This document shows, one piece after another, positions 2,669 through 56,896 of a stretch of DNA of 64,000 bases. Within the stretch, counting starts at the first letter, position 1, and the number at the start of each line of letters is the position of its first letter. The notes under the pieces were generated by a model that saw nothing but the letters and a program-made list of their open reading frames with translations, did not search any database and was not told the origin of the DNA. A program made the translations under genes and the position numbers. The DNA lies in contig NC_092680.1 in NCBI RefSeq assembly GCF_964355755.1, positions 20,375,001-20,439,000 of the forward strand, given 5' to 3'. This DNA comes from Antedon mediterranea. Its lineage: Eukaryota > Echinodermata > Crinoidea > Comatulida > Antedonidae.

Positions 2669-3124
2669 GTCACATGACCATTGGAGTGATGTCATTGATC
2701 AGCTAGTGTGTGCCACACCTACTAATGTTACAGACTGATATAAGCCAGGTGATTCTGTCTCCATTTTCAAACCGCTTTTTACCTCTTTTTACCTCTTTTT
2801 AGTTTTTTCCATCGTCAAGTTCTTATGCCTAGAAACTATAACAATTACTATGGCAACTACTACAATGGCCGCCAGCAGCAACAGCGACGAAACTGGCGAG
2901 GTCGTTATGAAGACGGCGATCTTGAATGGGACAATTATGATTTGGGAAGTGGAGGACAACGCAACGTAAAAGACAAACGTTACCATAATCGTAACAATCC
3001 GAATCATTTTCACCGCTACTCCAACTTCCCGTCGTCGACTGACTCGGAATTGGAATGGGATGATTATGATCTACGACAGAAACAAGAAGAGTGCTTAGAA
3101 GGGCTGGAGTCAATATTACCTTTG
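2669..3124 (+). CDS. probable first coding exon of the AKAP7-like gene
   Basis: A long pyrimidine tract and CAG end at 2668, followed by about 155 nt of possible 5' UTR and an ATG at 2825. The frame encodes an Asn/Tyr/Arg/Gln-rich segment with a repeated motif (DLEWDNYDL, then SELEWDDYDL about 45 residues later). Its composition matches the start of the exon at 9468 (Arg/Tyr/Asn-rich). A GT at 3125 ends the exon in phase 0, which fits the phase-0 acceptor at 9467, but the site is a weak donor (TTG|GTTCGA). Extra exons in the 6.3-kb intron are possible. After 3124 the frame turns hydrophobic and looks non-coding. Membership of this gene is inference from phase, strand and composition. Confidence 0.5.
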
Positions 3125-6100
3125 GTTCGACATTTTTCTTTTGCATTTTTGCACCTTGTTCAACTGTTTTTTCTACGATCCACTGTTATCAGTAACAAAA
3201 AAATACTAATAAACTCATCAATAACACTAATAAGAGCAATATAATATTTTCACTGCTGTACAGTATAATACAAATAATAATAGTGTGACTCCTCAATGTG
3301 TTAATAATAATACTTTCTTGTACTTCTGGGGTCAACAAGGTCCCTTTCAAACACATTACAAACCCATAATTCAACTACTAATTACAAACAATGTGATACT
3401 GTTGGCAGTTCTTGTGGTTTGAGTTTATTGCTATGTAACAATTAACATAATTTTCAGTTTTATTTTATGTTACTTTGTAGTGCATGTATTGTTGGAAAAA
3501 ATTGAAACCTTTTAAAATTATTTCTTCAGGTAGTAGATGTTTAGATACAGATAAGAGAAATCATTTCCAACTAATTGCATTTACAGCAGTTACCATAAAA
3601 CATTATTATTTTAGTATCTGTAATAAAAATACTAAATTCTAATGTTATTATAATGTAAATGTTTTTAAATGATGAAAATATCTGCTTATGTACTGTAGTC
3701 GATAATTAGAATTGGAAGTCCAATTAATGAGTTTTCCTTTGAAATAAGGTAGGAAATTAAATTGAATTTGTTGATGTTGGTAGTTTTTGTCCATACTCCA
3801 CTGTTGGCAAACATCCAAAAATAGTTTAAATGACCTTTGACCTTCCTAATAAAACGTCCTCTTGGGTATAAATTATAGAAATTAATTTTTTTTTAAACAA
3901 AGAAGGTACTGTAACTCAAGGCTGTTTTTAGTATTTACCGAAAATAGATCAACAATTTTCTTTTTTTAACTTCTAAAACATGATTGTAAACAGATTAGAT
4001 TGAACTAGAAACAACAGGTTTCTAAAATGAAACCATTTAAGATGATATTAAACAAATGTATTTAGTTAAAAACATAGTTACTTAGACACTGTTAATTAAT
4101 GCAAAAGGTTGATTGTTAATGTTACTTCTTTTTTTCTGGTGTATGTTTGGATATTTTCATATTCTGGAGCTTTCGGTTTATGACAGCTGGCGACCCAACT
4201 GGGTCAGGTCAATCGATGTGTCGTGGGTCGGCTTCTAAACCTAGAAACGATCAAACTGTTAGGAGAGCGGGAGTGAAGAAACGCATAGCAAAATCCACGC
4301 ATGCGCACAGGGAATTAACATTTGGTTATTGTTCGTTGCCAATTGAATAGATCTACAGTATATTTATAGGCTCCTCATACAGCTCCATGTCTCTTATCTT
4401 CAAGTTCTAATATAAAGCAAAGTCAATCTCAAAAGTTTTTGTAATTTGTTGTAAATGTTTTTATTTCCATTCTTGTCATGCATCTTTGGACAGTGAGGTT
4501 TGTTGGGCAGAAGGCTAAGCTGTAATTGAATAAATTACCACAAACTATATTGAATGTCCCCTGAACCTTTTATGATTTAATACCTTATTCCTTTCTTCTT
4601 CTCTTGGGATTAAGTGAAATGCTTGTTCTTTCTTTGTTGAAATAGGAAAAGGAAAAGTGTGGTTAAAATGCTGATTAGTTTTAAAAAATAAAATAAGTTT
4701 TTCATGGTTTGGAAGTCTTACATTTTTGAAAAATTTTTTATCGATGTTATAACCTGGACTTTTAAATCTTTCTGTTATAAATCTGCTTTAACCAAGCTTT
4801 TGAATTTCGCCTCACATTAGTCTGAGATGCAATTTCTCAAAATGTATTTTTCCCCTAAAAAATGTAAAATTTTAAAATCAGAAAATTGTTTTTTTTTTAA
4901 TTTTTAGATCCAGTTTTTGGCCAAATGAAAAAAAAAAATTATTACGTGACTTAAAATTGCATTTCAAAACATTTTTTAAGGGATACAATAATATATCTTT
5001 AACATTTAATGTTTTATTTATGTCATCTTTAACTTATTTCATTTTTTTCTTTTCTTTTAATTTTCCCTCTTATTACTGGATCTTCCTTGCATGGCAGGCT
5101 TTACTAAGGTAACATTATCATGTTGATCCATGTAGCATTGTGTTTCCAAGGTAACATCCGTGTACACCCAATGTATACTGTTAAAAAGTAATGCCTCTAT
5201 GTTGTGCTGTATGCCTTGCATTTAAAATGTTTATTTTTAATATTTATTTTCATTAAAACAAATTCAACATTTTTTTTTTCATTTTCCAAACACACTTATC
5301 AATCAAAACATGTTCATTGATATAATAATTGTGTCCCTTTAGAAGGAATAATTATGTGATTGGTTTTGTTAAATTGTTTATATATTATTATTTATTATAT
5401 GATTTATATCATAATTTGTTGTTGTTGCTGTCCAGTGTATGTTTCTTATTGTTTCTGCCCAGACTTTCCTGTGTCTTATGTGTTTTGTTTCTCATCTAGT
5501 ATGTCTTTGCACTACTGTATTTTTTCTTGTTTCTGTTAAAATTCTGAAATGTATTCGTTTTTGTTGTTTCTGTCTTGTTGTGTCTTAAATGTGTTAATTT
5601 TCTTTCTGGTTGTTTTTATCTTGTTTCTTGGTGTTTCTATCTTTTGTCTTAAATGTGTTCCATTATTGTTTCTTGTTGTTTGTCAGGTGATTTTTCTTTT
5701 CTTTTTCGTTTTTGTTTCTTTGTTTTTTGTTTGCAGCATTCTTGACAATGTTGTAGCTGTAACCTGTCAGTAATGCATGTTTTCATATACTATTCTTCTA
5801 TTTTAGTTCACAACCTCTGTTTACAGTTATTTTCCGTGACTCTGCAAGAATTCATGATACTTTGACCCTAAACCACTCACCACCACATTGTACTTTACTT
5901 TAATAAGATGCATGTGATTTTCATTTATATTTCCCTCTGTTTATTCTCTCGTCTATCTTTAATTTAAGAATTTTCTAAACTTTTAAGAGTACCTCTTTCA
6001 ACACAAACATAATATAACACATAAAGAAACCTATTGGTTTTTTGTCTTTATTATCAATTAGTAATAACAGTCTTTATCTAGGTCTAACTAATGGAACTTT

Positions 6101-9100: not shown

Positions 9101-12100
9101 TCATTGAAAAGCATGTGTTGTGTGGTATCATTTTACGCATGATGCATGAAAAATTTAAAAAAATAGACAACAACCATTAATTGACATAAACCTGTATGTA
9201 ACAATTCGAAAAAATAAATGCACTAGTAACAGTATGTTTTTTTTAAAATAAATATATTTATTGTTGAAACATGGACAGGTTACATTTTTTGTGCAATGCA
9301 AGATGAACACAGATCAATTATAAGCACCTGTCCACACCACTTCAAATGTTAATTATTAACCAACCATTAGATTTGATCCCAGCAAGTTTATAAAGTTTCA
9401 ACATGTGGTTTACCAATGCGGGATAATTACACTGTTTTTCATTTTTTATATTTTTGTATCTTCACAGCTAAACGAATTAAATAAAGCTCCACGATTTCAT
9501 GGAAATTTCAACTCAAGGGGTCGTTACAACAGATCATATGGACGCTATCATGATGATATACGAATGCGTCGTTTTAAAATTAATCAGGACTATTTTGTCT
9601 TAAACGGATATTCAAGTCTTTCACATAACTGGGAAAATAATCGTGGAAATAAGCATTATAATAATAATAGACGGAATGGTTATGACCGACATAATGGTTA
9701 CGACAGATACGGATATAAGCGAGATGGAGGTCGTCCTGACCAGAAATTCTACAGTGCACGGGATCGTATAGGTCGTCCATCAAATTTGCCGATTGATGAT
9801 TGGTTAATGAGCAACACGTTTAGTCTGATGCAAAACAAGCGACGTTTAAAGGATGTTAATTTATATACGTTATCGCCGCAAGATTTAGAACCGTATGACT
9901 CTTCGCAAAATGGATCTGTAGCCGATCTTAGTGATTTAGGCTTGTGTAAGTGTAGATTTGGAAATAATGCTTTTAACAACTATCAAACCACGCAAATACA
10001 TGTTAGAAATAGATTGTGTGATCAGTACAATCCGCGCCCTTCATCGCCTGATAATTACCACTGCGATTGCTATCAACTTTGCAATAATCTCAATTCGCAT
10101 CATCCATTTTGTGGCGAATGCCAAGATAGGTATAATTTAATCAGAAATAATCCTCATAGCATTGCGTATCTTCAACATATACAACAGTACAGTTTGTACT
10201 GGGAAAAAGATTCTGATAACGACAAGATGTTTGGGTTCAAAAAACGTCGTAAGAAGGAGGGCCTCGATAAACTTTCACCCGAGGCATTCGGCCCACAGCA
10301 AGGCAATGTTAAGTATAGGGGCGGTAGTTGTAGTAGTAGTGTTGTTAGTAGAGATTCTTATGAAGACGATACTGATATATGTACTTGTGTGCAATTAGAT
10401 CATAACTTACATACTGTTGAATTTCATTCTAACACTTCTCACAAAACTCTCTGTCACCACTGTTATGGGAAACAGGATAACAAAGTTGATGTAGATCTAG
10501 AACTAACCAACAGCTTTTGTAAGGGTGGTTCTGGAAGTAGTCCAGATTTCTTGGGTGCATCTCAAGGTGATCATCTGGTTTTGGGTTCTTCCGGTGACCC
10601 TGCTTCCTTGGTGTCGGAAACTGCTGATAGGTGTCTTCGTCAACGACCGGAATCGTTTTATTCGACTTGCACTATATCAGGTAGAAAGCTTAATTCACAT
10701 TGCTTGCTTGCTTCCGATTCTAACATCGCAAAGTACGATACCATTCATAATATCACTTCTTCAAACATTAATACTGGTGGAGGTTCATTTCATTTTTCAC
10801 TTAATAATAGACCTTTAACACCACCAGAGCATGACTCAACTAATGCATCTATCTTTACTAGTAGATATACCGATGATGGAAATGATTCTAAAGCAAAATC
10901 TGATTCAGCAACAGAAACTAACAAACCTGACTTTACAGTCAAAAGTACAGTCAGAACCGACGTTAATGAATCAAAGGAAAGTCTGATTGATTGTGACGAT
11001 AACTTCGAAACTAGTATGGACACGCGTTCTGATGACGCTAACATATTTGAAGTGAAAGATATTGATGTCTCCGATTGCCTTATGATAAATGCTTCAAACG
11101 ACTTTGCCTGTCAGGCTACCAAAGAACCTAATATATTGGTTACTAATTTAAAGGACAGTCATTCAGTTACTGAGGAACTAATACTACTAACCAATAATAC
11201 AGGAGTGCACACAACTAAACATGATACTAAGCATGCTTGCTTGACTACCAGTGAGATTAGCATAGAAAATAAGGTTGCACCTGACTCATTCACTAAACCA
11301 TGTATTGAGCACGCACCTACATTCCAGTCGTCTGCCACTGGTTCTTTGCAGACATCCATTTTAGGGCCTAGCTTCTTTTCAGATGATGACCTAGGATTGG
11401 ATCTGTCGGTTGGCAGAAGTGCTGATGGTGATGACGATACAGTCAGTTTGACTAGTGTCGCAAGTTTAGCTGATGGTACGTTTTTAGCATGCATATTTTT
11501 TTTTGTGTCTATTTTATCCATCTCCAGTCCTCAAAATCAGCTTATCAACTTTTCATTTGATTGCCGTTCTCAACCTTTTATCAATTGCTTTATCAACTTT
11601 TTACCAATTAGCTTTAAGCTCTGTCTACACTATCAAACTAGTTTGCCAAAAAGTGTGATGAACCCAAATATGGTAGTGATATGCCCAGATATCATGTCCA
11701 TATATGGGCACATCACATTTTTTTGTCGCATAAAGTTTGATAGTGTAGACATAGTTTTACACTAAACTTTTCATTGATTGGCCTATTTGACTCAAAAGCC
11801 CAGACCAGAATATAGTAAAAGTTTCTTTATATTTAAACCATTATTGTTCCAGCTTCTACAACGCCTCTATTTGCCAACTTTACATCATCTAATGATTTAA
11901 AGGGTTATTTTAAAATTCAACTTTTAGATAATGGGTTAGGAAAGAAAGCAAAGGCAAAGAAAGCCAAGAAGAGGAAGCGAAAGGGTGGAGAAAAAGGATG
12001 TGAAGCCACGGAGAATGACGATGGAAATAAAAACAAAAAAGTTGCACCAAATTTTTTCGTGGCAGTACAAGTTTCAAATCCAAAGGTTAGATAGTTTTTG

Positions 12101-15100
12101 AAATTTAAATAAATGAGATAAAATAATTTTAGCGGTGCTGTATAAACTGGGGTGTGCATTAGTTTGAATTTATTCTGGTTTATTGAACAAAAAAAGTACA
12201 AAACTTAGTGGCGTTAATTTACATCAATTAAATTTAATAAGTAGACAAATTAAGATATAGTATACCAGTATATAACATATAGCAATAACAGTGGTCTCAA
12301 TCCTTGGTTGGTAAGGCCTGCTTAAAATCCTGCAAATACTATCTGCTGTCTGTTTTCTATCTAGCATTATACCTTTGCTAAAATATCTAAATCTTGAATC
12401 TTTTCACCCTGTCTGTTTATATATACATTTATATAGTTTTTTTGTTTCAATATTCTCAATTTGTGATTTGACATAGTTACCAATGCTATTTTTCTTTTCT
12501 TTACTTCTGTCTAGATCCAACGATCTCTGCGGCAAGTGCAGAATCACGTTCTAAACTTTGATGAGAAATTAAAGGATGCAATGATACCGTTACCCACAAT
12601 GCATCTCACCATCATGGTCATGCATCTTGGGAATGAAGAAGAAATTGAAAAGTGAGTGATATCAGTGATGATATTATGGCACTAGAATATTTTTTTTTTG
12701 GCCAATATAAACAAAGTTGCAACTTTTCAGAATAAGACATTTCTTAATAATTTGTTTCATTGATCAGGGCCAAAAAAGCACTGGAAGCATCCCACAAAGA
12801 GTTATCTGTGAAATTTGGTGAGGAGAAGTTACTGATCCACTTTCAAGGCTTAAGTCATTTCAACAATCAAGTTATGTTTGCCCGTATCTTAGACGATGAC
12901 AGTACAATCGAGGTCTTGTATAATATTGCAGGTAGGTTTAACTGAATACAATATTATATTACCTAAATATAAGAGGCACAGTAACACATGGTATTGTAGC
13001 TTAGTTAATAATAGCCTATAGGTTAATCACAGATACAAAAGTACTACAGGATTGTATTTAATACTTTTTAGTTATACAATTATAATATAATTTGTAAAAT
13101 GTATACATTCATTCATTAAATTATTTTCCTTATAAAAGTTCAAATATTTCAAAATAATGTATACAGTAAGATTTGGAGAGTTTAACAAAGAAATTGTACA
13201 AACTTTGTCGTACAAGAATTGAAACAACTATAATTTATTTCTAATTTCTAGAAACTGTCGAAAGATGTTTTAAAGAACATGGTATATCGTCAACTGGTGA
13301 GCGGGGTTTCAAACCCCACCTCACCGTAATGAAACTCTCTCGTGCTCCAAGTCTGCGGAAGAAAGGTGTACGACGCATAAAGTCGGAGGTTTATAAGGAG
13401 CATAGTAATAAATATTTTGGAGCACAGGTTATGAGAGGTCTTCAACTGTGCTCGATTACTAAACCAAAGACAGGAGACGGCTACTATGCCAAGCTTCAAG
13501 AATTCTATTTTGGAACATATGGTAATTATAAGGTTTTTAGGCACGTTGCCAAAAATTAGCAATAGCAATTTTTGTTTGGACAGAGTCCAGGATAAAAACA
13601 AAGAAACTAAAAACCAGTGTGGATGTAAAAAGTCACTTATTTTATTAAATGACAAAACAAATTAATTCTTTTTTTTGTTGTCCTGATATGCATGTGGTAA
13701 TTAATTCAGGTGAGAAATGTGTAAAAAAGATACCTGGTATTTGGGAGAGGATTTGTTTTTAGCATAAATTTTTGTCGGGCTTGAGAACCTAATATTATTA
13801 ACTAAGTTTACTATACTACAGATTAGAAATATATTTCAAGAATAAAGAAAATTGGTTCCTTAATAACTTCACAAATAAAAATAAAGAAAACAGTTTTAAC
13901 ATTTTAACATGGGTTGAAATATCAACATGCCCCTTCTGTGGCAATATTTGCCAAATAATTCACTCAATTTCTGAGTGCTTTCATTTGTTTGTTAGCACGA
14001 TAGCGCCTACAAATTTCAAGTTATCAATCTGAATTTTTTTGGTGTAAATTGATACTTACAGAACATGGCTATTGAAATTCAAGGAAATCAGTTCATCAAT
14101 AACTTTATTTTTTTAACACGGGCAAAATATCAACATGCGCCCTCTGCTTCACTCAGTTTCTGAGTGCTTTCACTGTTATTATCGTTTCATGCAGTGTTTA
14201 GTCATATATATTTGTATTGAGAGAGATCAATTGTATTTTTTGTCTCATAATATGGGTAATATAAATACTAATGTTTGAAATTTAGGAGAGTTGGAAGAAG
14301 AAGATGATGGAGTGGACTTGATTGGAGATCCAGTGATTGAATCAGCCAGTAATAACCAAGACTTAAATCCACTGAATGAACTTATTCAAGATCTTAAAGA
14401 ACAGAAAAAGAACACAATATCAACGGTTACTGAGTCAGTCAAAAGTAAGTACCAATACTTGGAACCACTAAATAAACTTATTCAAGATCTTAAGAACACA
14501 ATATCAACAGTTACTGAGTCTGTCAAAAGTAAGTACTAAGACTTAGATCCACTAAATAAACTTATTCAAGATCTTAAAGAACAGAAAAACAACACAATAT
14601 CAACAGTTACTGAGTCTTGTCAATAGTAAGTACCAAGACTTGGAACCACTAAATAAACGTATTCAAGATCTTAAAGAACCGAAAAAAAAACACAATATCA
14701 ACGGTTACTGAGTCTGTCAAAAGTAAGTACCAAGACTTGGAACCACTAAACAAACTTATTCAAGATCTTAAAGAACAGAAAAAGAACACAATATCAATGG
14801 TTACTGAGTCTGTCAAAAGTAAGTACCAAGACTTGGAACCACTAAATAAACTTATTCAAGATCTTAAAGAACAGAAAAAAAACACAATATCAACAGTTAC
14901 TGAGTCTGTCAAAAGTAAGTACCAAGACTTGGAACCACTAAATAAACTTATTCAAGATCTTAAAGAACAGAAAAAGAACACATCAATGGTTACTGAGTCT
15001 GTCAAAAGTAAGTACCAAGACTTGGAACCACTAAATAAACTTATTCAATATCTTAAAGAACAGAAAAAGAACACAATATCAACGGTTACTGAGTCTGTCA

Positions 15101-15584
15101 AAAGTAAGTACCAAGACTTTGAACCATTAAATAAACTTATTCAAGATCTTAAAGAACAGAAAAAAAAACACATCAACGGTTACTGAGTCTGTCAAAACTT
15201 AGTAATGTATTCTTCAAGTAATTGCATTTATTTAGCATTATATTGCATTTAATGAAATTACTTTTTTATTTGTTTTTTTCACTGATATTTTTTCTTTTAA
15301 TATTTGTTATATTTTTTAAATTTAAATAATTTTAACGAATGTCTAATTAGGATACTTAGCATGCTTGAATGTAAATTGAGATACAAAATAATTCATTTTT
15401 TTCAGAAGCTCTTAAAACGTCTGTTAAAGAAGAGGACAGCACAAGTGAATTAGTCTCTGAATCCAGCCTTGACAGAACTGCTGACCTTACAACAAGCTGT
15501 GATGATATTCCTAGTGAGGATCTAATACCACAGGAGCCTAAAGAAATAAACACTTCACCAACAGAGGGCCCTGATAAAATGTAA
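2825..15584 (+). CDS. AKAP7-like protein with 2H phosphoesterase domain (whole gene)
   Basis: Inferred exons are 2825-3124 (tentative), 9468-11475, 11853-12085, 12515-12651, 12768-12931, 13252-13521, 14286-14444 and 15406-15584. All junctions are GT-AG, and phases match throughout (0, 1, 0, 2, 1, 1, 1). The product is about 1150 aa. A long Cys/Ser/Asn-rich N-terminal region comes first, then a lysine-rich NLS-like patch (exon at 11853). Next is a 2H phosphoesterase domain of the AKAP7_NLS type with HLT at 12602 and HLT at 13317, the paired H-x-T motifs of the family. A helical EPLNKLIQDLKEQKK-type unit and an acidic Ser/Thr tail follow. In vertebrates AKAP7 gamma/delta anchors PKA and its 2H domain is a 2',5'-phosphodiesterase. 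I see no clear copy of the vertebrate RII-binding helix. The N-terminal 670 residues are absent from vertebrate AKAP7, so LENG9-like or other 2H relatives are alternatives. Confidence 0.75.
7345..7398 (-). ncRNA. hammerhead-ribozyme-like motif
   Basis: On the minus strand, CTGATGA (7383-7389) is followed by one extra T. A 6-bp stem GTTGTT/AACAAC with a 6-nt loop comes next, then GAAA (7360-7363), ACATGTT as a very short stem III and cleavage-site context, and TGC pairing with the GCA that precedes CTGATGA. This is the layout of a type I hammerhead as found in Penelope-like retroelements. The extra T after CTGATGA departs from the consensus. A second copy of the motif lies near 43122. It may be a decayed or variant ribozyme, or a conserved retroelement terminus that merely resembles one. 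Confidence 0.35.
7991..8035 (+). repeat. tRNA-like (SINE) fragment
   Basis: The sequence contains a B-box-like GGGTTCGAGTTCC within a T-arm-like hairpin GTGG-GTTCGAGTT-CCAC, preceded by an anticodon-arm-like segment. No matching acceptor stem is visible. This is more likely a tRNA-derived SINE remnant than a functional tRNA. Confidence 0.4.
8121..8427. repeat. direct repeat pair (about 113 bp, 192 bp apart)
   Basis: The segments 8121-8233 and 8313-8427 share CAAATTCTTGTGAATTGTAC, GGTTTTAAA-AACATTTTAAAAATACC and TAACCGCTTTGTGGCAG with few differences. Both start near GAGAGAA. They are intronic and non-coding. Confidence 0.8.
9468..11475 (+). CDS. AKAP7-like gene, large exon (669 codons): Cys-rich, Ser/Asn-rich region
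   Basis: The acceptor TTCACAG ends at 9467, and the donor is ATG|GTACGT at 11475/11476 (phase 1). The frame is open upstream of 9468 but has no ATG there, so this is an internal exon. The start of the exon is rich in Arg, Tyr, Asn and Gly. Three Cys clusters follow: CKC near 9947; CDC...C...CGEC between about 10060 and 10119; and CTC...CHHC between about 10380 and 10465. The CxC/CxxC spacing suggests metal binding. The rest is acidic, Ser/Thr/Asp-rich and probably disordered. I recognise no named domain. Beyond 11475 the frame stays open into a MITE, which is intron, not protein. Confidence 0.75.
11616..11757. mobile_element. MITE family 1 copy (AAGCTCTGTCTACACTATC termini)
   Basis: The element is about 142 bp with terminal inverted repeats AAGCTCTGTCTACACTATC and GATAGTGTAGACATAGTTT. 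The interior carries AATATGGTAGTGATATG and TGTCCATATATGGGCACATC. It lies in the intron between the exons ending at 11475 and starting at 11853. Related copies occur at 15739, 27776, 36685, 36953, 51481, 53307 and 58749. Confidence 0.85.
11853..12085 (+). CDS. AKAP7-like gene, exon with NLS-like patch and start of 2H domain
   Basis: The acceptor is TTGTTCCAG (ends 11852) and the donor CCAAAG|GTTAGA. Read in phase 1, it encodes a run of Lys/Arg-rich residues (KKAKAKKAKKRKRKGG) that looks like a nuclear localisation signal. An acidic linker follows, then APNFFVAVQVSNPK, the first strand of the AKAP7-type 2H fold. The frame ends in phase 0. Confidence 0.8.
12515..12651 (+). CDS. AKAP7-like gene, exon with first HxT motif
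   Basis: The acceptor is TCTGTCTAG and the donor AAA|GTGAGT. It encodes IQRSLRQVQNHVLNFDEKLK, continuing to HLTIMVMHL. His-Leu-Thr at 12602-12610 is the first 2H phosphoesterase motif, at the position where vertebrate AKAP7 has a matching H-x-T. It ends in phase 2. Confidence 0.85.
12768..12931 (+). CDS. AKAP7-like gene, 2H domain middle exon
   Basis: The acceptor is TGATCAG (ends 12767) and the donor GCAG|GTAGGT. The product runs KALEASHKELSVKF, then the LIHFQGLSHFNNQVMFARI segment, equivalent to the conserved FQGIGTF-NQV region of AKAP7, then an Asp-rich turn. It ends in phase 1. Confidence 0.85.
13252..13521 (+). CDS. AKAP7-like gene, exon with second HxT motif
   Basis: The acceptor is AATTTCTAG and the donor CATATG|GTAATT. 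It encodes ETVERCFKEHGI, then KPHLTVMKLSRAPSLRKKGV. The second His-Leu-Thr (13317-13325) and the following KLS-x-P-LRKxGV block are diagnostic of the AKAP7 2H domain. The domain closes with LCSITKPKTGDGYYAKL. It ends in phase 1. Reading through the donor meets a stop at 13557. Confidence 0.88.
13835..14175. repeat. imperfect intronic direct duplication
   Basis: Two related segments (about 13850-13986 and 14080-14175) share TCATCAATAACTT-like and AAATATCAACATGC-CC blocks, then CTCA-TTTCTGAGTGCTTTCA. They lie in the intron before the 14286 exon. Confidence 0.55.
14286..14444 (+). CDS. AKAP7-like gene, penultimate exon ending in a donor that is repeated downstream
   Basis: The acceptor is AATTTAG (ends 14285). 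The product begins GELEEEDDGVDLIGDP and ends with a 32-residue helical unit (LNPLNELIQDLKEQKKN...). The donor AAAA|GTAAGT at 14445 is near-perfect and gives phase 1, matching the acceptor at 15405. The unit just before this donor is the founder or a member of the tandem array that follows. Using the second copy's donor (14529) would add 28 codons and keep phase. Confidence 0.75.
14350..15200 (+). repeat. 96-bp coding-like tandem array with a splice donor in every unit
   Basis: About nine units encode a 32-aa motif of type DLEPLNKLIQDLKEQKK plus NTISTVTESVKSKYQ. GTAAG donors sit at 14445, 14529, 14626, 14723, 14819, 14915, 15008 and 15104; spacing is 84, 97, 97, 96, 96, 93 and 96. The last unit has lost it. 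An in-frame TAA follows the second donor (14537-14539), and units 3 and 4 carry 1-bp insertions. Full read-through as protein is therefore unlikely. The array is mostly intronic duplication of an exon end. Confidence 0.9.
15406..15584 (+). CDS. AKAP7-like gene, last coding exon
   Basis: The acceptor is a T-rich tract with TTCAG (ends 15405). Read in phase 1, it encodes ALKTSVKEEDSTSELVSESS and then an acidic Ser/Thr-rich tail to a TAA at 15582-15584. An AATAAA about 32 nt after the stop (15616-15621) is a plausible polyadenylation signal. Confidence 0.75.
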
Positions 15585-15738: not shown

Positions 15739-15875
15739 TTAAGCTCTGTCTACACTATCAAATTAATGTGACAAAAAATGGGATGTGACCATGGACACGA
15801 TGATGTCATATCACTACCATATTTAGGCACATCATATTTTCTTCAAACTAGTTTTATAGTGTAGACAGAGCTTTA
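15739..15875. mobile_element. MITE family 1 copy
   Basis: Terminal inverted repeats TTAAGCTCTGTCTACACTAT and ATAGTGTAGACAGAGCTTTAA flank about 95 bp. The interior carries the GACACGATGATGTCATATC and ACTACCATATTTAGGCACATC blocks. The ends read TTAA on both sides, compatible with a TTAA or TA target duplication. No coding capacity. Confidence 0.88.
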
Positions 15876-17293
15876 AACAAAAAATAATTAGTAAAAACAT
15901 CAACTGAAACAACTCAACAATAAAAAGAACATACGAATTGAAAGGTGCTAGCCAGGTTTAGGTTTACTGTAATCATCATTTTGTCGCCTTTCGATGTTGA
16001 TGCTTGTGACCATTTCATTTGAATGAACAATTATCACATTATTATCTCATTTTATAGTATAATTATATTTCTAAATTTAAAAAAATATATTTAACTTACT
16101 TTTATAGTTAATGGGTGAGTAAATAGATCAATCAAATTTTATTTTAAATATCATTTAATTTACCGTAATAGAAATTTTTTTAAACTTTATTAGATAGAAT
16201 TAATATTTTCATTTTTGTTAATTTACGTATACACTAACATTTAAATTGTAATATTATATTTCATCTTAGGTTACTAAATCAGTAGATTAGTTTTGCTGGT
16301 CAAAAAATAACAAAATAATGTATTTGTTTAAAAATGTTTAGGATTATTTTTCATTGGCAATTTGTTTTATGTTGAGGTGTACAATATAAAATTGCAGCAA
16401 TGGTCTTTCAACAAATTGTATTCACACACACAGCAGCGCCCTCTATGCTGATATTCCTCGATATAAACCCTTTTTAATTTGTTTTTTGAGCTAAATCTTA
16501 ATTAACTGGAATCTTCAGTTACATAATTAAGTACAGCGTGAAAAGCTAAAAAAAAATCCATCGGGTAACTTAAAATATTTATTTAACTAACCACAAATTT
16601 GTGCAACTCGTATCGTATCAAAACTTACTAAAATATTTTTATATTGCTTGCACGTCTATATATATTATTAAAGAAAGATTTAGAAAGATTATTATGAATA
16701 ATTTAGAAAAGAAATTGCGTTTTAAATAATTATGAAAAAAGCCTACTAAAATGTAAAATAATTAGAAAAAGTGTGTTGTCGATTCATGATTTGTAAGTAA
16801 TAACTATTTCAGTTCAAACTAAGTTATAAGAATTCAGGATTGTGTTATAGTGGTTCGTTAAAATTTCATGTTCAGGAATCATGTCCCAGATAAAAATAAA
16901 ACATTATAATTATTTTAGCCGATATAGGAAAAGGCGTAATAACGCGAACAAAATCCAAGCTTCTGATGGTGCCTGGCGTAAAAGAATACTAACAGCGTAA
17001 AAAAAAAGAGAATAATTAACTAGAAACTCGAGGAAATACTGGTGTAACGTCTGCGTATAAGAGTATTACATCATAATTAATTTCACTAATGATCGTCGTT
17101 CACTGTTGAACGTAAGCTCTTTAAGAAGAGTTTCTAGATATATTGTAAATAGGATGATTGATGGTTGATAATGATGATATATGGATATCTGCAAGTGCTG
17201 TATGTACAGTATTTAATTGAGAATTATATGCACTGTTTGTTTAGCAGATATTGTCTTCTCCCTGATGTGTTTGTCACGCCGCAAACACGTGTT

Positions 17294-18640: not shown

Positions 18641-21600
18641 TACAGGGAAATTTTATAATCGCAGGGACGAATAATGGGTTCTGCGCATGTCAATTGTGCT
18701 ATAGTAACCAGTTTTGACATAAATGGTTACTATTGCATAATAAACATGCGCAGAGATGAATAATGGGTTCTGCGCATGTCAATTGTGCTATAGTAACCAG
18801 TTTTATCGAAAAATTAAAAGGTCGACAATTGACCATTTTTAAAAAAAATCCCTGTACTATAGTACAGGGAAATTTTCGAAAAATGGTCGATTTTAGACCC
18901 TTTTATTTTTTGACATAAATGGTTACTATTGCATAATAAACATGCGCAGAGACTAATAATGTGTTCTGCGCATGTCAATTGTGCTATAGTAACCAGTTTT
19001 ATCGAAAAATTAAAAGGTCGAAAATTGAGCATTTTTTTTTAAAATCCCTGTACTATAGTACAGGGAAATTTTCGAAAAATGGTCGATTTTAGACCCTTTT
19101 ATTTTTTGACATAAATGGTTACTATAGCATAATAAACATGCGCAGAGGCGAATAATGGGTTCTACGCATGTCAATTGTGCTATAGTAACCAGTTTTATCG
19201 AAAAATAAAAAGGTCGAAAATTTGCCATTTTTTGAAAAAATCCTTGTACAATAGTACAGGAAAATTTTCGAAAAATGGCCGATTTTCGATCCTTTTATTT
19301 TTTGACATAAATGGTTACTATTGCATAATAAACATGCGCAGAGACGAATAATGGGTTCTGCGCATGTCAATTGTGCTATAGTAACCAGTTTTGACATAAA
19401 TGGTTACTATAGCATAATAAACATGCGCAGAGGCGACTAATGGGTTCTGCGCATGTCAATTGTGCTATAGTAACCAGTTTTATCGAAAAATAAAAAGGTC
19501 GAAAAATGGCTATTTTTTGGAAAAAATCCCTGTACTATAGAACAGGTAAATTTTTGAAAAATGGCCGATTTTCGACTCTTTTATTTTTTGACATAAATAG
19601 TTACTATTGCATAATAAACATGCGCAGAGACTAATAATGGGTTCTGCGCATGTCAATTGTGCTACAGTAACCAGTTTTGACATAAATGGTTACTATAGCA
19701 TAATAAACATGCGCAGAGGCGAATAAGGGGTTTTGCGCATGTTAATTGTGCTATAGTAACCAGTTTTATCGAAAAATTAAAAGGTCGAAAATTGACCATT
19801 TTTAAAAAAAATCCCTGTACTATAGTACAGGGAAATTTTCGAAAAATGGTCGATTTTAGACCCTTTTATTTTTTGACATAAATGGTTACTATTGCATAAT
19901 AAACATGCGCAGAGGCGAATAATGGGTTCTACGCATGTCAATTGTGCTATAGTAACCAGTTTTATCGAAAAATAAAAAGGTCGAAAATTTGCCATTTTTT
20001 GAAAAAATCCCTGTACTATAGTACAGGAAAATTTTCGAAAAATGGCCGATTTTCGATCCTTTTATTTTTTGACATAAATGGTCACTATTGCATAATAAAC
20101 ATGCGCAGAGACGAATAATGGGTTCTGCGCATGTCAATTGTGCTATAGTAACCAGTTTTGACATAAATGGTTACTATAGCATAATAAACATGCGCAGAGG
20201 CGACTAATGGGTTCTGCGCATGTCAATTGTGCTATAGTAACCAGTTTTATCGAAAAATAAAAAGGTCGAAAAATAGCAATTTTTTGGAAAAAATCCCTGT
20301 ACTATAGAACAGGTAAATTTTTGAAAAATGGCCGATTTTCGACTCTTTTATTTTTTGACATAAATAGTTACTATAGCATAACAAACATGCGCAGAGGCGA
20401 ATAAGGGGTTTTGCGCATGTTAATTGTGCTATAGTAACCAGTTTTATCGAAAAATAAAAAGGTCGAAAAATGGCTATTTTTTGGAAAAAATCCCTGTACT
20501 ATAGAACAGGGAAATTTTTGAAAAATGGCCGATTTTCGACTCTTTTATTTTTTGACATATATAGTTACTATTGCATAATAAACATGCGCAGAGACTAATA
20601 ATGGGTTCTGCGCATGTCAATTGTGCTACAGTAACCAGTTTTGACATAAATGGTTACTATAGCATAATAAACATGCGCAGAGGCGAATAAGGGGTTTTGC
20701 GCATGTTAATTGTGCTATAGTAACCAGTTTTATCGAAAAATAAAAAGGTCGAAAAATGGCTATTTTTTGGAAAAAATCCCTGTACTATAGTACAGGGAAA
20801 TTTTAGAAAAATGGCCGATTTTCGACCCTTTTATTTTTTGACATAAATGGTTACTATTGCATAATAAACATGCGCAGGAACGTATAATAGGTTCTGCGCA
20901 TGTCAATTGTGCTATAGTAACCAGTTTTGACATAAATAGTTACTATTGCATAATAAACATGCGCAGAGACTAATAATGGGTTCTGCGCATGTCAATTGTG
21001 CTACAGTAACCAGTTTTGACATAAATGGTTACTATAGCATAATAAACATGCGCAGAGGCGAATAAGGGGTTTTGCGCATGTTAATTGTGCTATAGTAACC
21101 AGTTTTATCGAAAAATTAAAAGGTCGAAAATTGACCATTTTTTAAAAAAATCCCTGTACTATAGTACAGGGAAATTTTCGAAAAATGGTCGATTTTAGAC
21201 CCTTTTATTTTTTGACATAAATGGTTACTATTGCATAATAAACATGCGCAGAGGCGAATAATGGGTTCTACGCATGTCAATTGTGCTATAGTAACCAGTT
21301 TTATCGAAAAATAAAAAGGTCGAAAATTTGCCATTTTTTGAAAAAATCCCTGTACTATAGTACAGGAAAATTTTCGAAAAATGGCCGATTTTCGATCCTT
21401 TTATTTTTTGACATAAATGGTCACTATTGCATAATAAACATGCGCAGAGACGAATAATGGGTTCTGCGCATGTCAATTGTGCTATAGTAACCAGTTTTGA
21501 CATAAATGGTTACTATAGCATAATAAACATGCGCAGAGGCGACTAATGGGTTCTGCGCATGTCAATTGTGCTATAGTAACCAGTTTTATCGAAAAATAAA

Positions 21601-24412
21601 AAGGTCGAAAAATAGCAATTTTTTGGAAAAAATCCCTGTACTATAGAACAGGTAAATTTTTGAAAAATGGCCGATTTTCGACTCTTTTATTTTTTGACAT
21701 AAATAGTTACTATAGCATAACAAACATGCGCAGAGGCGAATAAGGGGTTTTGCGCATGTTAATTGTGCTATAGTAACCAGTTTTATCGAAAAATAAAAAG
21801 GTCGAAAAATGGCTATTTTTTGGAAAAAATCCCTGTACTATAGAACAGGGAAATTTTTGAAAAATGGCCGATTTTCGACTCTTTTATTTTTTGACATATA
21901 TAGTTACTATTGCATAATAAACATGCGCAGAGACTAATAATGGGTTCTGCGCATGTCAATTGTGCTACAGTAACCAGTTTTGACATAAATGGTTACTATA
22001 GCATAATAAACATGCGCAGAGGCGAATAAGGGGTTTTGCGCATGTTAATTGTGCTATAGTAACCAGTTTTATCGAAAAATAAAAAGGTCGAAAAATGGCT
22101 ATTTTTTGGAAAAAATCCCTGTACTATAGTACAGGGAAATTTTAGAAAAATGGCCGATTTTCGACCCTTTTATTTTTTGACATAAATGGTTACTATTGCA
22201 TAATAAACATGCGCAGGAACGTATAATAGGTTCTGCGCATGTCAATTGTGCTATAGTAACCAGTTTTGACATAAATAGTTACTATTGCATAATAAACATG
22301 CGCAGAGACTAATAATGGGTTCTGCGCATGTCAATTGTGCTACAGTAACCAGTTTTGACATAAATGGTTACTATAGCATAATAAACATGCGCAGAGGCGA
22401 ATAATGGGTTCTACGCATGTCAATTGTGCTATAGTAACCAGTTTTATCGAAAAATAAAAAGGTCGAAAATCGGCCATTTTTTGAAAAAATCCCTGTACTA
22501 TAGTACAGGAAAATTTTCGAAAAATGGCCGATTTTCGACCCTTTTATTTTTTGACATAAATGGTTACTATTGCATAATAAACATGCGCAGAGACGAATAA
22601 TGGGTTCTGCGCATGTCAATTGTGCTATAGTAACCAGTTTTGACATAAATGGTTACTATAGCATAATAAACATGCGCAGAGGCGAATAAGGGGTTTTGCG
22701 CATGTTAATTGTGCTATAGTAACCAGTTTTATCGAAAAATAAAAAGGTCGAAAAATGGCTATTTTTTGGAAAAAATCCCTGTACTATAGTACAGGGAAAT
22801 TTTAGAAAAATGGCCGATTTTCGACTCTTTTATTTTTTGACATAAATAGTTACTATTGCATAATAAACATGCGCAGAGACTAATAATGGGTTCTGCGCAT
22901 GTCAATTGTGCTACAGTAACCAGTTTTGACATAAATGGTTACTATAGCATAATAAACATGCGCAGAGGCGAATAATGGGTTCTACGCATGTCAATTGTGC
23001 TATAGTAACCAGTTTTATCGAAAAATAAAAAGGTCGAAAATTTGCCATTAATTTGGAAAAAATCCCTGTACTATAGTACAGGGAAATTTTTGAAAAATGG
23101 CCGATTTTCGACCCTTTTATTTTTTGACATAAATGGTTACTATTGCATAATAAACATGCGCAGGAACGAATAATAGGTTCTGCGCATGTCAATTGTGCTA
23201 TAGTAACCAGTTTTGACATAAATAGTTACTATTGCATAATAAACATGCGCAGAGACTAATAATGGGTTCTGCGCATGTCAATTGTGCTACAGTAACCAGT
23301 TTTTACATAAATGGTTACTATAGCATAATAAACATGCGCAGAGGCGAATAATGGGTTCTACGCATGTCAATTGTGCTACAGTAACCAGTTTTGACATAAA
23401 TGGTTACTATAGCATAATAAACATGCGCAGAGGCGAATAATGGGTTCTACGCATGTCAATTGTGCTATAGTAACCAGTTTTATCGAAAAATTAAAAGGTC
23501 GAAAATTTGCCATTTTTTGAAAAAATCCCTGTACTATAGTACAGGAAAATTTTCGAAAAATGGCCGATTTTCGACCCTTTTATTTTTTGACATAAATGGT
23601 TACTATTGCATAATAAACATGCGCAGAGACGAATAATGGGTTCTGCGCATGTCAATTGTGCTATAGTAACCAGTTTTGACATAAATGGTTACTATAGCAT
23701 AATAAACATGCGCAGAGGCGACTAATGGGTTCTGCGCATGTCAATTGTGCTATAGTAACCATTTTTATCGAAAAATAAAAAGGTCGAAAAATGGCTATTT
23801 TTTGGAAAAAAATCCCTGTACTATAGAACAGGGAAATTTTTGAAAAATGGCCGATTTTCGACTCTTTTATTTTTTGACATAAATAGTTACTATTGCATAA
23901 TAAACATGCGCAGAGACTAATAATGGGTTCTGCGCATGTCAATTGTGCTACAGTAACCAGTTTTGACATAAATGGTTACTATAGCATAATAAACATGCGC
24001 AGAGGCGAATAATGGGTTCTGCGCATGTCAATTGTGCTATAGTAGCCAGTTTTATCGAAAAATAAAAAGGTCTAAAAATTGCCATTTTTGGAAAAATCCC
24101 TGTACTATAGTACAGGGAAATTTTTGAAAAATGGCCGATTTTCGACCCTTTTATTTTTTGACATAAATGGTTACTATTGCATAATAAACATGCGCAGGAA
24201 CGAATAATAGGTTCTGCGCATGTCAATTGTGCTATAGTAACCAGTTTTGACATAAATGGTTACTCTAGCATAATAAACATGCGCACAGGCGAATAATGGG
24301 TTCTGCGCATGTCAATTGTGCTATAGTAACCAGTTTTATCGAAAAATAAAAAGGTCGAAAATTTGCCATTTTTTGAAAAATCCCTTTACTAGGCCTACAG
24401 GAAAAATTTTTT
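18600..24412. repeat. satellite array of two alternating palindromic modules
   Basis: Module A (about 89 bp) begins TTTGACATAAATGGTTACTA and contains ACATGCGCAGA...TCTGCGCATGT and GGTTACTAT...ATAGTAACC inverted repeats. Module B (about 109 bp) is a foldback centred on CCCTGTACTATAGTACAGGG, with GGTCGAAAA...TTTTCGACC and AAAAATAAAAAGG...CCTTTTATTTTT arms. The order is AB (198 bp) with occasional AA (89 bp) steps. I count about 22 B modules. A 1339-bp higher-order block (19589-20927) is repeated almost exactly at 20928-22266. Short open frames on the minus strand are products of the repeat and not genes. Confidence 0.93.
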
Positions 24413-27996: not shown

Positions 27997-28102
27997 CACC
28001 GCTGTTTATCATAAAACTCCACCACTTTTTGTGCACTTTATAACAGTGGTTATAATTTTAATTTTCATAATTGTCCTCCTTTTTTTATTTGTCTAGTGTA
28101 AA

Positions 28103-29044
28103 ATGAGTAACTTTACCGAGGATGAGAAGAATGTGTTACATGGCCACCTTGCTAATTTGGTGACGCGTTACGCCGTTGGAATAGTAGGAATTCTTGCAAA
28201 TTTACTTGTCGTTCTGGTTTTCATTTTAAAGAAACTTTACAAAAAATCCTCCACACATTTTCTGATTTTGCACCAGTCTTGGGTTGACATGGCTGGTAGT
28301 CTTTTGTTCATCATCTACTATACAATGGATACTCCAGCTGGAGTAGCTGGTGAGATATTCTGTAAATCAAGAGCGATATTTTGGCATCTGCAGTACGCTT
28401 CGACAAATAATTTAGTCCTGGTGACGATTGAGAGATATGTAGCCGTACTGCATTCAAATTTGTACAGGATAAAGTTCAGCAAACGTAAAAGAAAAGGAAT
28501 GATTTTAATCATTCCTCATTTTCTCGCACTTGTGATGTCTTTGTGTTTGGCAATTCCTGCAACTGCTGATAAAGAGAAGCCATGGTTATGTGAAGTTAAT
28601 GTAGATTCCAGAAAATTAGTTGCATATGGTTTAATAGTGTTCCTTGTTTGCTGGGTTATACCAACCACAATCATGGTATACTGTTACGCTCGTATCTTTA
28701 ATACGATTAATGAAAAAGCCAAAACTGAAGTTTCGAGATCTCAACACGATTTAACCAGTTCAGGAGGAAAACAAAATTCAGTAACCACTAAGAACAAAAT
28801 GTACGGTAGAGCTCAACAAAACCTTATTGTCACACTTTGCTGTGTTTTTATCGCATTTATAATTTGCATTACACCAGAGTATGTGTTGTACCTGATATAT
28901 ACGTTATGTGGATGTTTTCAGTTGAACTTAAGTGATGCACATGAGATAACTCTAACACTGATTGCCACAAATCTAAGCGTCAACCCTTTCATTTACGCGT
29001 TTAAGTTTAACGACTTTAGAAAAGAACTGCAGAAGCTTGGTTAA
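28103..29044 (+). CDS. class A (rhodopsin-like) GPCR, ERY family, 313 aa
   Basis: This is a seven-helix receptor for the plasma membrane; the ligand is unknown. An N-glycosylation site NFT lies at residues 3-5. TM1 is about 20-43, with the cytosolic LYKKSSTHFLILHQS segment after it. C87 (TM3) and C163 (ECL2) are the expected disulfide pair. ERY at 110-112 replaces DRY. Pro258 in TM6 lies in ITPEY, and NPFIY at 294-298 is followed by helix-8-like KFNDF. GTCTAG at 28091-28096 is an acceptor 6 nt before the ATG, so the 5' UTR is probably spliced. The tail after NDF is only about 8 residues. Another frame just past 29035 is open to a TAA at 29124-29126 and encodes an acidic Ser/Thr-rich tail (VDVSDSPYTKSTTEDPD), suggesting a frameshift near the C-terminus. 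Closest relatives in the window are at 39576 and 46408. Confidence 0.93.
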   Translation: MSNFTEDEKNVLHGHLANLVTRYAVGIVGILANLLVVLVFILKKLYKKSSTHFLILHQSWVDMAGSLLFIIYYTMDTPAGVAGEIFCKSRAIFWHLQYASTNNLVLVTIERYVAVLHSNLYRIKFSKRKRKGMILIIPHFLALVMSLCLAIPATADKEKPWLCEVNVDSRKLVAYGLIVFLVCWVIPTTIMVYCYARIFNTINEKAKTEVSRSQHDLTSSGGKQNSVTTKNKMYGRAQQNLIVTLCCVFIAFIICITPEYVLYLIYTLCGCFQLNLSDAHEITLTLIATNLSVNPFIYAFKFNDFRKELQKLG

Positions 29045-29126: not shown

Positions 29127-30960
29127 TTAAAAATTTGAAGTAAAAAATTCGAAAATATTTTCTATCCTAATGGCAAATATGAACTTTGATTTAATTGCAA
29201 TTGCAAATTGTTCATTCATTCAGTTGCAATATTCAGAGACCAACGATCAAGAGAATATCAATATTTCCTATTAAAAATGAGTTTTTATCGTTTAAAATCT
29301 TCAATTATTCATAGGTCTTCATGAGATAAAATTACGTTAATTTAATATTCTTCGAAACAGTTAATGTAAATAATAGCTTAGTACAAAAAAATCTATAGAT
29401 CTTTTATTTTTGCTTGTGTCGTGTATATTAAGCGTAACCTTTTATCCAGTTACATACTGTACTTATTTAGGTTACTTAAATTGATAATAAGGAAGTTGAA
29501 TTCACCAATCTGTTTCTAAGAAATAAAACATTTATGTAGGCCTAGCTGTATGTAGACATGTATATAAAGTTATTAGGTATCTAATCAAGTTTGAACTCTG
29601 AAAGCATCAGAGGTCTACACAGGATGTTTGCATATCAAGAAGATTACATTCCTAAAATCTCCTATCAGTTCGCTTTGGCTGACCCTTCCATCAGGTACAT
29701 CCGATAATGAACCAATTGAAGAAGCTCGAATTTTTTCTTAATTATTTAGGCCTTTTAGTATTGAGTATTATAATGTTCAGAATTTCTGTTTTAATTTAAA
29801 TCTATTAACTTCAAATCTATTATTCCATTGATATAAATGTATATACATTTTGTTCTTCTTTTAATGTATAATTCCTGCATGTTTGTTTATCATTGATAGT
29901 TGTGATAGTTGCATTTCTCGGCCGGCCTCGTGGAGATGAAGAAGACATTTTGTTGTGAACAAGCCTCCGTTTTAAATAAAGATGTTATTATTATTATAAG
30001 CTGGCTGTCGTACTGGATTCAAATTGGTACTGGAGTTTTAGCAAACTATTTTATCTTGTTTGCTAGTGTATGTGTTTTTTTTTCAATTCCATTTTTTTCT
30101 AAATTCACCTGATTTTAATTAGATAATCTATTGATCCAATATTTATACTGCTTTTCTATTTGGTATTAATTACTTATCATTTTATAAATCTTTACATTAT
30201 TCAAGCAAATAATTTAACCAAGAATAAAGAAAAAAACAGTATAAATATATATAATAATAAGCTTATTTTGTGTCTAGTCTGTTATTTAAAATGAATAAAA
30301 ACCTATGTAACATAAGAAAAAATAAAAAATCTATTGGTATATTGTATGCCATCAGACCATAGCAATACTTGCTAAAATAGAATATCAAACAATGCATAAT
30401 ATACAATAGTTATAATAATTATAATTATGCATAATTTGATATTGCTTTTATACCCACTATATGACTGACAACTCAGCACCCACTATTTGATGATTTCGGG
30501 GTTCCATAATTTTCAATAGGCCTTTTAATATTTAAGCACACATTACTAGTGTAACTATAACATATTGGTAATTAGATGTTTACGATATCCTCATTCAATG
30601 TGTCTATGTATTGATTGTAAATAATCGAAACACGAGTTAACGAGGAGTGGTATCACATTTCTTCTTGTATTAACGTGAATCTTGTTGTTCATTTTAATTT
30701 AAGTTAATTTTTCCATATTGACTATGATTTGTCAGTACCGTGTTGTGTTACCACAGCAATTATTGCAAACTATCGATTGCCTTTCTCGATTCATTTTTAA
30801 TTAGACAAATGAAAAACCACAACGAAGCTTAATGTTTATTTTTGAATTTGTCTCTACTCTGCAAAAAAAGTTATTAGTTTACTGTTTGGATTTCTGGTCA
30901 TAAAGGCCTTTGGAAATTGTGGCTAGGTTTGCCTCTCATATTTTATAAAGTTTATGGTTA
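29127..30960. other. intergenic region between GPCR genes
   Basis: Mostly AT-rich. A retroposon-like 3' end at about 29890-29998 ends AATAAAGATG and then (TTA)n. Next to it, 30000-30100 encodes a short hydrophobic stretch resembling a TM1 (GTGVLANYFILFASV) with no continuation. No gene is supported. Confidence 0.45.
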
Positions 30961-31893
30961 ATGTACAATATGAGAGGAGACGGAGTTTACGTGGACTATA
31001 TCAAATCTTTTTCCTTTTCCAAAGACAAAAACTCTTCAGTATTTGATGATCTAAGGGAAAGTTCAGCTGAAATGATTTTGTATCAAATTTTATTCTCTGT
31101 TACCGGAATTGCAGGATTATTTTCTAACGGGTTTGTACTTTTCATATTTTTACGCAACAAACGTTTATTGGACAAGAAAAACGCGTTTATTTTCAATCTT
31201 GCGTTTGTTGACGCGTTGTATGGAGTGTTCCTCATCTGTATGTGTTTTAGTGGTTCTGTTGGTTTTAGAGGTATAACATTTGCTTGTAACATGACAATGT
31301 TGTTATTATCGTGTATTGCATTGGATAGATACATTGCCTTGGTACTGTATCCTCTGACATACCATTCAAAAGTTACATGGAAGCGACTGCGATTATCCAT
31401 ACTTGGCACGTGGATTTCATGCTTTATTTTTACGGTTTGCGAACTTGAAGTTACAAGAATTTCAATAAAAACTGCATTTTTAGCAGGTGCGTTTATTCTT
31501 GTTGCGTCGCAAGTACTGATATTATGTCTCTACGGAACTGTATATGTCGCGATTTTGCAACAAGAGAAAAAAGTAGTCGACCAGAAGTTGCGAAGTCGAT
31601 GCAAACGCGGGAAACAAAGAGCTGCCATTTTTAGCATGCTAGTTGCAAGTTTTATGTTATGCTTTTTACCTCAGATAGTTGCTGTTTTACTGGTGCCCAT
31701 AAAAGGGTCAGAAAGTCTATTTGAAAAGAAATACTCGCAACTGGTAGTACTTTCAACAATACCACCTGGAATTCGTGCTATGCTGGATCCATTTATATAC
31801 TGTAGCAAATTACCTGGTATAAAGGAAACTGCTATGAAACTGATGAAAAAAATTAAAAGAAATCAAATTGAAACTACTTCAACTAATCAGTGA
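30961..31893 (+). CDS. class A GPCR, DRY/DPxxY family, tandem copy 1, 310 aa
   Basis: This is an intronless seven-helix receptor; the ATG is at 30961, with a second in-frame ATG at 30970. The N-terminus is about 38 residues. TM1 contains GLFSNGFVLFIFL. LDRY is at 121-124. ECL2 is very short and has no obvious cysteine, so the usual TM3-ECL2 disulfide is probably absent. TM5 lacks the usual proline and reads VLILCLYGTVYVAI. ICL3 is basic (RSRCKRGKQR). CFLP is at 234-237 in TM6, and DPFIY at 276-280 replaces NPxxY. Short ECL2, no TM5 proline and DPxxY are features of the MECA group (melanocortin, lysolipid, cannabinoid and adenosine receptors). I suggest affinity to that group and no particular ligand. 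Almost identical to the 33524 gene in its first 290 nt. Confidence 0.92.
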   Translation: MYNMRGDGVYVDYIKSFSFSKDKNSSVFDDLRESSAEMILYQILFSVTGIAGLFSNGFVLFIFLRNKRLLDKKNAFIFNLAFVDALYGVFLICMCFSGSVGFRGITFACNMTMLLLSCIALDRYIALVLYPLTYHSKVTWKRLRLSILGTWISCFIFTVCELEVTRISIKTAFLAGAFILVASQVLILCLYGTVYVAILQQEKKVVDQKLRSRCKRGKQRAAIFSMLVASFMLCFLPQIVAVLLVPIKGSESLFEKKYSQLVVLSTIPPGIRAMLDPFIYCSKLPGIKETAMKLMKKIKRNQIETTSTNQ

Positions 31894-33523
31894 ATATTTA
31901 AAATGTACATTTGATGTTATATTGGAAAAAATGGAAATTATGAACACAAACACCAAGCATAAAAACCAAAACGACAGAGGGAGTAATAAGAAGAATTTAT
32001 TCCACGCGGTTAGAACATTTTTTTTATTACATACAATCTTCCGAGAATGAGGAAAAGTTACGAAAAAAATCTGGATTTGGAGGCGGATATCTTCTCACCA
32101 AATCCTTATTAGATTGAAATTTTGGAAGAATTATTATGATTATCAATTTTTCATGCTATGAAGATTACGTCGCTACTCAGCCTTTCATATATTTCTCTAA
32201 ACTCTAACCCCACCCCCTTCCTATCTCCTAATTTGGAAATGTATTTGACTAATTTAAAAATAAACTATAGCATAATTATCATTAAAATTAATTCCTCATT
32301 TGTTGCAGATGCTGTACCAGCAAATTGTTGAGAGAATGGCATACAATATTATTATATTTACATTTAGTTTGTTTAATGAGGTAAATTACACAAAACTAAC
32401 ATGGTGTAACCACTTTAAAACATTTTATTATTTTCTATCCAGCCGTGAATTTCAAAGTTAAAGATGTATTGTCCCTCAAAAACATGAAAAATGAAGATGA
32501 ATAAAATCAGACTTTAAATAGACCATTTTGGAATTATAACAAAGTTAATCACTTCTGTAGAAAAAAACCCTGAAAAAACAATGTTTTAAGTTATCTAATG
32601 ATAAAATAAACGGTTAAATTCAACCAAAAACCCATTGACTGGTAGCCAATTTGACTATTTTTTTGGGTTCAATTTTTTGTAAAAGTGAATAACTATTATA
32701 TGACAGTGAAATATTAAAAAAAATATACTTCAGGGTGACAATACATCTTTAACAATTCGAAACACGTTCATTATGGTTAGAGATTGTTTCCTTAAGGATG
32801 TGATGTTTACATGACATCATGTAGTATAGTAGATTCCTTGTGTCTATTAGTTGTATGTCGTTCCGGTACATTAGGCGTATCCAGAAAGCGGGGCGGGAAA
32901 AAAGTATAACACTAAATTTCAAAAATGCAATGCAGGACATTAATAGCACTTCAGTTTACAATGTTGTGGAAGGATATGAGTATTGTGATTTAGGAAATCT
33001 ATCAATCACATTTCTGTGAATTAATAGACCATGTACAGATCACCTAACCGTCCGTGACGAGTAAGTTTTTATAATTTAGTTTTCAGTTTTCTTTCTCGTC
33101 ATTGTTTGTATTGTTTGTACAATATTTAATACGCGAAAGTGAATCAAAATGTTTGAATATGCAATAGTAGGAAAGCAAAGATTCATATCTGTGCCGTATT
33201 CGATACTCTGATCATGCGCAGAAGTAATAGGTATACAACCACGGGAAAAGGATAATTGGAAAACGTCATGATCAGAATACCGCGTTGAAAGTACATTAGT
33301 GATAAAGAGCTTACTATCTAGATTTGCACTTTCAATCGATTCGCAAATTTTGGATTGATACATTTTAATCGATTGTTTGTGATATGATTTAGAGTACTGA
33401 TAAGTGGAATATTCAGACCTATCTATTTATCAATTAATATATATAGGTGGATGATATCGGACCACTGTGAAAAGTGAACAGTTTGAACATCGTATTTGTT
33501 ATTTTCTTGAAAACTGGTTCGGG
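31894..33523. other. intergenic region between the tandem GPCR pair
   Basis: It holds the MITE family 3 copy at 32457-32753. The remainder is AT-rich with no supported gene. An AT-rich TATA-like stretch (AATTAATATATATAGG, about 33431-33447) lies about 80 nt before the next ATG. Confidence 0.5.
32457..32753. mobile_element. MITE family 3 copy (GTTAAAGATGTATTGTC termini)
   Basis: The element is 297 bp with terminal inverted repeats GTTAAAGATGTATTGTCCCT and AGGGTGACAATACATCTTTA-AC. The interior includes AAAAACATGAAAAATGAAGA and AATCAGACTTTAAATAG. Related copies lie at 40683-40852 and 52121-52320. No coding capacity. Confidence 0.88.
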
Positions 33524-37918: not shown

Positions 37919-37919
37919 T

Positions 37920-56788: not shown

Positions 56789-56896
56789 CTTACTAACCTT
56801 CTTCAATTGTGCTGTCTGAACAACTATCTTAACAACTACTGTCTTCAAATATATTCACACAATTGAGCTAAGTATTAATCTAGTATGAGACCCAAA

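Follow-up and report, generated by a model that had tools for sequence, protein, structure and literature searches.

Why does one exon end carry eight consecutive splice donors, and what could the gene make of them? In the window, by which we mean the whole 64,000-nucleotide stretch of Antedon mediterranea DNA that was analysed, the end of the penultimate exon of an AKAP7-like gene is repeated in tandem together with its donor. The array is probably a minisatellite seeded at the exon-intron boundary, in which donor 1 most likely dominates, donor 2 would be a minor site that adds 28 aa and donors 3-8 would be nonproductive.

The AKAP7-like gene

The window holds the 3' part of the gene, and this part is intact. 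Seven exons between 9468 and 15584 on the forward strand join into a single open frame of 1049 aa that ends with TAA, and all splice phases fit. The chain starts with a large upstream coding exon (9468-11475), which is in phase with the next exons and encodes an N-terminal extension of about 670 aa. Four short exons of 137-270 nt follow (11853-12085, 12515-12651, 12768-12931 and 13252-13521); the last three of them encode the AKAP7_NLS domain, and the exon at 13252 ends in phase 1. The penultimate exon with donor 1 (14286-14444, 159 nt) continues in frame to the last coding exon (15406-15584), whose stop codon TAA at 15582-15584 has an AATAAA 32 nt downstream. The Pfam domain AKAP7_NLS (2'5' RNA ligase-like) was matched by residues 735-932 with an E value of 4.3e-41 over profile positions 1-206 of 208, and AKAP18 structures matched the protein at E 3e-40. 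The initial annotation had called the gene AKAP7-like, and the seven exons, their single frame with fitting phases and the domain match bear this out.

The RI/RII-binding helix PF10470 gave no Pfam match in the last exon, and this PKA-binding helix has been reported from vertebrates only (PMC3508976). For these two reasons we use the name AKAP7-like and do not speak of an AKAP in the strict sense. A PKA-anchoring helix split by the intron (TESVK/KALK) was considered and rejected: the alignment of the last exon to the vertebrate RI/RII-binding helix of AKAP7/18 did no better than shuffled sequence, 40% of the shuffles equalling it, and nothing stood out in the motif score.

Within the window, an Arg/Tyr/Asn-rich open frame at 2829-3244 begins with MPRNYNNYYGNYYNG and is similar in composition to the first part of the 9468 exon; it may be the first exon of the AKAP7-like gene. 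An intronless 495-aa ORF at C1:633050-633634 combines a complete AKAP7_NLS domain with a CCCH-type motif; we read it as a LENG9-like gene and not as a retrocopy of the gene in the window. A split gene on C7 with an AKAP7_NLS match is perhaps an ASCC1-like candidate. A genome search with the protein sequence of joined exons 6 and 7, made for a retrocopy that would serve as a record of splicing, matched this locus only.

Structure of the array

The array extends from 14349 to 15197 on the forward strand and consists of nine units. Tandem Repeats Finder (TRF) gave a period of 96 with 93% matches, and the unit alignment agrees with the earlier claim of an exon-end tandem duplication. Each unit of about 96 bp corresponds to the last 89 nt of the exon and the first 7 nt of the intron, and unit 1 is formed by the last 96 bases of the penultimate exon. 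Between the successive units stand eight near-identical GTAAGTA donors. Donor 1 (14445-14451) and donor 2 (14529-14535) both join 15406 in frame, and the GTAAG sites of donors 3-8 start at 14626, 14723, 14819, 14915, 15008 and 15104 (span 14626-15110). The eight consecutive donors that had been described are thus all present. That each unit has a donor of its own holds for these eight intact heptamers and fails at the distal end, where CTTAGTA is found at 15198.

The units are less uniform than the 96 bp and 32 aa that had been ascribed to every one of them. From donor 1 to donor 8 the GTAAG sites are spaced by 84, 97, 97, 96, 96, 93 and 96 bp. Measured from donor to donor, unit 2 has lost 12 bp in frame (84 bp), units 3 and 4 have gained one (97 bp), unit 7 has lost three (93 bp) and unit 9, which runs from donor 8 up to the decayed site at the distal end, has a net loss of two (94 bp). 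Three of the eight downstream copies (units 3, 4 and 9) are therefore frameshifted, and unit 3 also contains a stop. With at most one mismatch, AAAAGTAAGTAC occurs eight times inside the array and once, with a mismatch, in the rest of the 64 kb; shuffled sequences contained it 1.13 times on average and never more than 4 times.

In the 354-Mb genome the array is found at one locus only. We considered and rejected the idea that arrays with donors are a speciality of this genome: three AGTAAGT words spaced by 85-111 bp were found 747 + 1526 times, as against 750 + 939 times for the reversed pattern. Since the AGTAAGT-triplet matches listed were mostly simple short-period minisatellites, the mere recurrence of a donor-like word is nothing special. 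The array also does not appear to consist of regulated tandem duplicated exons of the Dscam type, in which every copy has an acceptor and a donor and the copies are mutually exclusive. Only the donor recurs in each unit, and the acceptor at 15405 is the one that fits the frame.

In units 4-8 an open stretch of 177 aa (14653-15183) runs through the donors. Single-sequence AlphaFold2 modelled it as nearly all helix with a mean pLDDT of 83, and this model is what sustains the earlier description of the repeat as a helical segment. Pfam searches with the repeat ORF gave scattered matches, mostly below the cut-off, which we treated as coiled or helical noise. The open stretch would fit a coding repeat that is in frame in other alleles and translated there as one long exon, the present allele being a broken copy. 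We regard this as highly improbable: there is a stop after donor 2, three units are frameshifted, the changes between units look neutral, and the perfect donor at each unit boundary would be spliced. Even less credible is an assembly artefact. Some of the 1-bp differences, in units 4 and 9, fall within runs of A, where sequencing errors are common, yet 20 substitutions and several indels tell the units apart, and the array measures only 850 bp within a chromosome-scale contig.

Relation to known boundary repeats

In human CBS, a 31-bp VNTR with 16-21 copies, c.1444_1467+7(16_21), lies across the boundary of exon 13 and intron 13, and its unit consists of 24 exon bases and 7 intron bases (PMC2630376). 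The AKAP7-like array resembles it in that each unit combines the exon end with the first seven intron bases and so has its own donor, and in that units differ by single substitutions. The CBS repeat belongs to an unrelated gene and is polymorphic and linked to CBS activity, which is lower with more repeats (PMC5188458). Whereas its unit is 31 bp long, that of the AKAP7-like array has 96 bp in nine copies and includes more of the exon, and the frame is preserved through unit 2.

Human ABCA7 has a 25-bp VNTR whose units each start at the donor of exon 18 (PMC5954066). As in the AKAP7-like gene, the GT of the donor starts each unit, and splicing from the second donor leaves one unit in the transcript. 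The ABCA7 repeat differs in that its unit is intronic, its copy number is 12-427 and retaining a unit causes a frameshift; its main length effect is skipping of the next exon, which increases in longer arrays (PMC5954066).

Two other kinds of event are related. A known tandem duplication across a splice junction likewise left two competing sites, but it added one extra copy only and lies at an exon start. In intron gain by tandem duplication, as in potato RdRp (PMC4974935) and Drosophila (PMC2891723), the duplication also supplies splice signals and exon copies become intron; there a new intron arises, whereas the AKAP7-like intron gains extra donors only.

With nine units crossing the boundary and eight intact donors, the array has the make-up of an exon-intron boundary minisatellite of the CBS/ABCA7 type, and on sequence grounds it appears to be the same kind of repeat as in CBS, with a longer exon part. 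A repeating donor phased to a protein repeat had been called unusual. As a statement on frequency this is justified, but as one on kind it goes too far, given the precedents in CBS and ABCA7.

Products and predicted use of the donors

Recomputed phases fit the earlier statement that donors 1 and 2 are both in phase 1 with the acceptor at 15405. The product of donor 1 reads TESVK-KALKTSVKEED across the junction, and donor 2 adds SKYQYLEPLNKLIQDLKNTISTVTESVK (28 aa) with the frame kept. If donor 2 is not used, the reading frame meets an in-frame TAA at 14537-14539, so that donors 3-8 all terminate with SVKSKY and leave 86-564 nt between the stop and the last junction downstream; intron retention terminates at the same codon. 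This TAA and the +1 shifts of units 3 and 4 limit longer isoforms, as had been proposed. A stop more than 50-55 nt upstream of the last junction usually triggers nonsense-mediated decay, and by this rule the products of donors 3-8 are predicted targets.

In our reading, donor 1 with its 159-nt exon would serve most transcripts, donor 2 would be used occasionally and add its 28 aa in frame, and transcripts that use donors 3-8 or retain the intron would run into the TAA and hence be decayed or give a C-terminally truncated product. By analogy with ABCA7, where the canonical site is the first donor and about 2% of transcripts retain one repeat unit by using the donor after it (PMC5954066), donor 1 most likely dominates in the AKAP7-like gene as well. 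The rules of splice-site pairing would also allow intron-proximal donors to win, and we count this against the dominance of donor 1. Such donors are disfavoured because they need exons of up to 818 nt, while the four short exons further upstream measure 137-270 nt.

If the intron-proximal donors nevertheless took a large share of the transcripts, splicing would feed decay and the length of the array would lower the output of the gene. The stops 86-564 nt before the last junction agree with such a sink, as does the lower activity of CBS with longer repeats (PMC5188458). We consider it unlikely, since donor 8 would require an exon of 818 nt and leave an intron of 302 nt, and since ABCA7 uses its first donor despite the 12 to 427 copies that follow (PMC5954066). 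Very doubtful, too, is a length-dependent dial in which the two phase-matched donors give one- or two-segment proteins, the other six feed decay and the copy number sets both ratio and output.

Tests for selection

According to the initial annotation, the protein could contain the helix once or twice depending on the choice of donor. Donors 1 and 2 alone are capable of this, and functional use finds no support in the sequence. A selected generator of isoforms, regulating the ratio of proteins with one helical segment to those with two, would fit the common phase of the two donors, the open unit 2 with its in-frame deletion of 12 bp and the predicted helicity of the repeat. However, units 5-8 are open as well although they lie beyond any in-frame transcript and cannot be translated; the open unit 2 is therefore uninformative.

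Units 2-9 contain 20 substitutions in about 750 bases. None falls within the 56 donor bases, an outcome with a likelihood of 22% at the array's own rate, and when the decayed distal donor is included there are two changes in 63 bases. In coding terms, 5 of the 14 distinct changes are synonymous where 24% would be expected (p 0.22), a near neutral ratio. Three of the eight downstream copies are frameshifted and the distal, presumably ancestral, donor has decayed. The array thus shows no sign of selection; the counts behind this null result are small and compatible with weak selection. As the changes between units look neutral and the array exists at one locus only, we hold a selected isoform generator to be quite unlikely. 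Nor is there a basis for the view that decoy donors tune splicing, given that the donor heptamers vary like the rest of the unit, that the coding changes look neutral and that frameshifts are tolerated.

Origin of the array

The boundary-seeded minisatellite probably started from one tandem duplication across the exon-intron boundary, comprising 89 exon bases and the first 7 intron bases. It would have joined base +7 of the intron at the real donor (AAAA/GTAAGTA) to a point in the exon some 89 bases 5' of the donor, and because of this joining every copy would have received an exon end and an intact donor. The homology of unit 1 to the others starts at AGTAA, or AGTAATAACC, in the exon (14349), and this AGTAATAACC aligns with AGTAAGTACC at each later unit boundary. 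As the later units each start with GTAAGTA while the homology begins at the exon AGTAA, the seven intron bases seem to have travelled with the unit. The breakpoint would then lie at an imperfect homology between AGTAATAACC of the exon and AGTAAGTA of the donor; the exon sequence joined would be CCAAGACTT, and the partial match GTAA..A may have assisted the joining. We infer the exact joining point from this homology, inside which there are two mismatches.

Unequal exchange or slippage would subsequently have expanded the array to nine units, with the downstream copies now mostly within the intron; this order of events is likewise read from the units. Unit 3 may be closest to unit 1, with which it has ATCC at position 20 in common. 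In a relative that lacks the array, the intron is predicted to start with GTAAGTAATG. At the place predicted for the ancestral donor, the distal end reads TCAAAA followed by CTTAGTAATG, and we infer that CTTAGTA (15198-15204, forward strand) is this donor, now dead, from a seven-base match of 5/7 to GTAAGTA, a level that is reached or exceeded by 1.9% of the 7-mers of the window.

Other features of the window

A cluster of single-exon rhodopsin-family GPCR genes occupies 28097-63428. Examples are 28097-29044, 30949-31893, 33455-34453 and 39546-40580 on the forward strand and 46408-47439, 55793-56854 and 62442-63428 on the reverse strand, and the four genes of the cluster that were tested all matched 7tm_1. 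One copy at 60491-61415 (reverse strand) is split between two frames. Inside the cluster, a reverse transcriptase ORF of 435 aa (37919-39226; RVT_1, E 4.5e-32) is likely a fragment of a non-LTR retrotransposon.

A large composite tandem array at 18712-24391 has periods of 89, 196 and 285 bp and inverted-repeat-like unit ends (GGTTACTAT...ATAGTAACC); possibly it is a tandemly multiplied MITE. A repeated sequence with the motifs CTCTGTCTACACTATCAAA and CATATCACTACCATATTTG was found at 11600-11760, 15740-15890, 37026-37172 and 51513-51572 and is probably an interspersed element, part of which is expanded at 37026 as a 21-bp tandem repeat.

Implications

The breakpoint suggests a simple origin for an array of this kind, namely the imperfect pairing of a donor-like exon sequence with the real donor. 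An exon-end repeat of the CBS type has here arisen independently in an unrelated gene. With its eight near-identical donors in front of one acceptor, the AKAP7-like gene offers a natural series for measuring the effect of position alone on donor choice.
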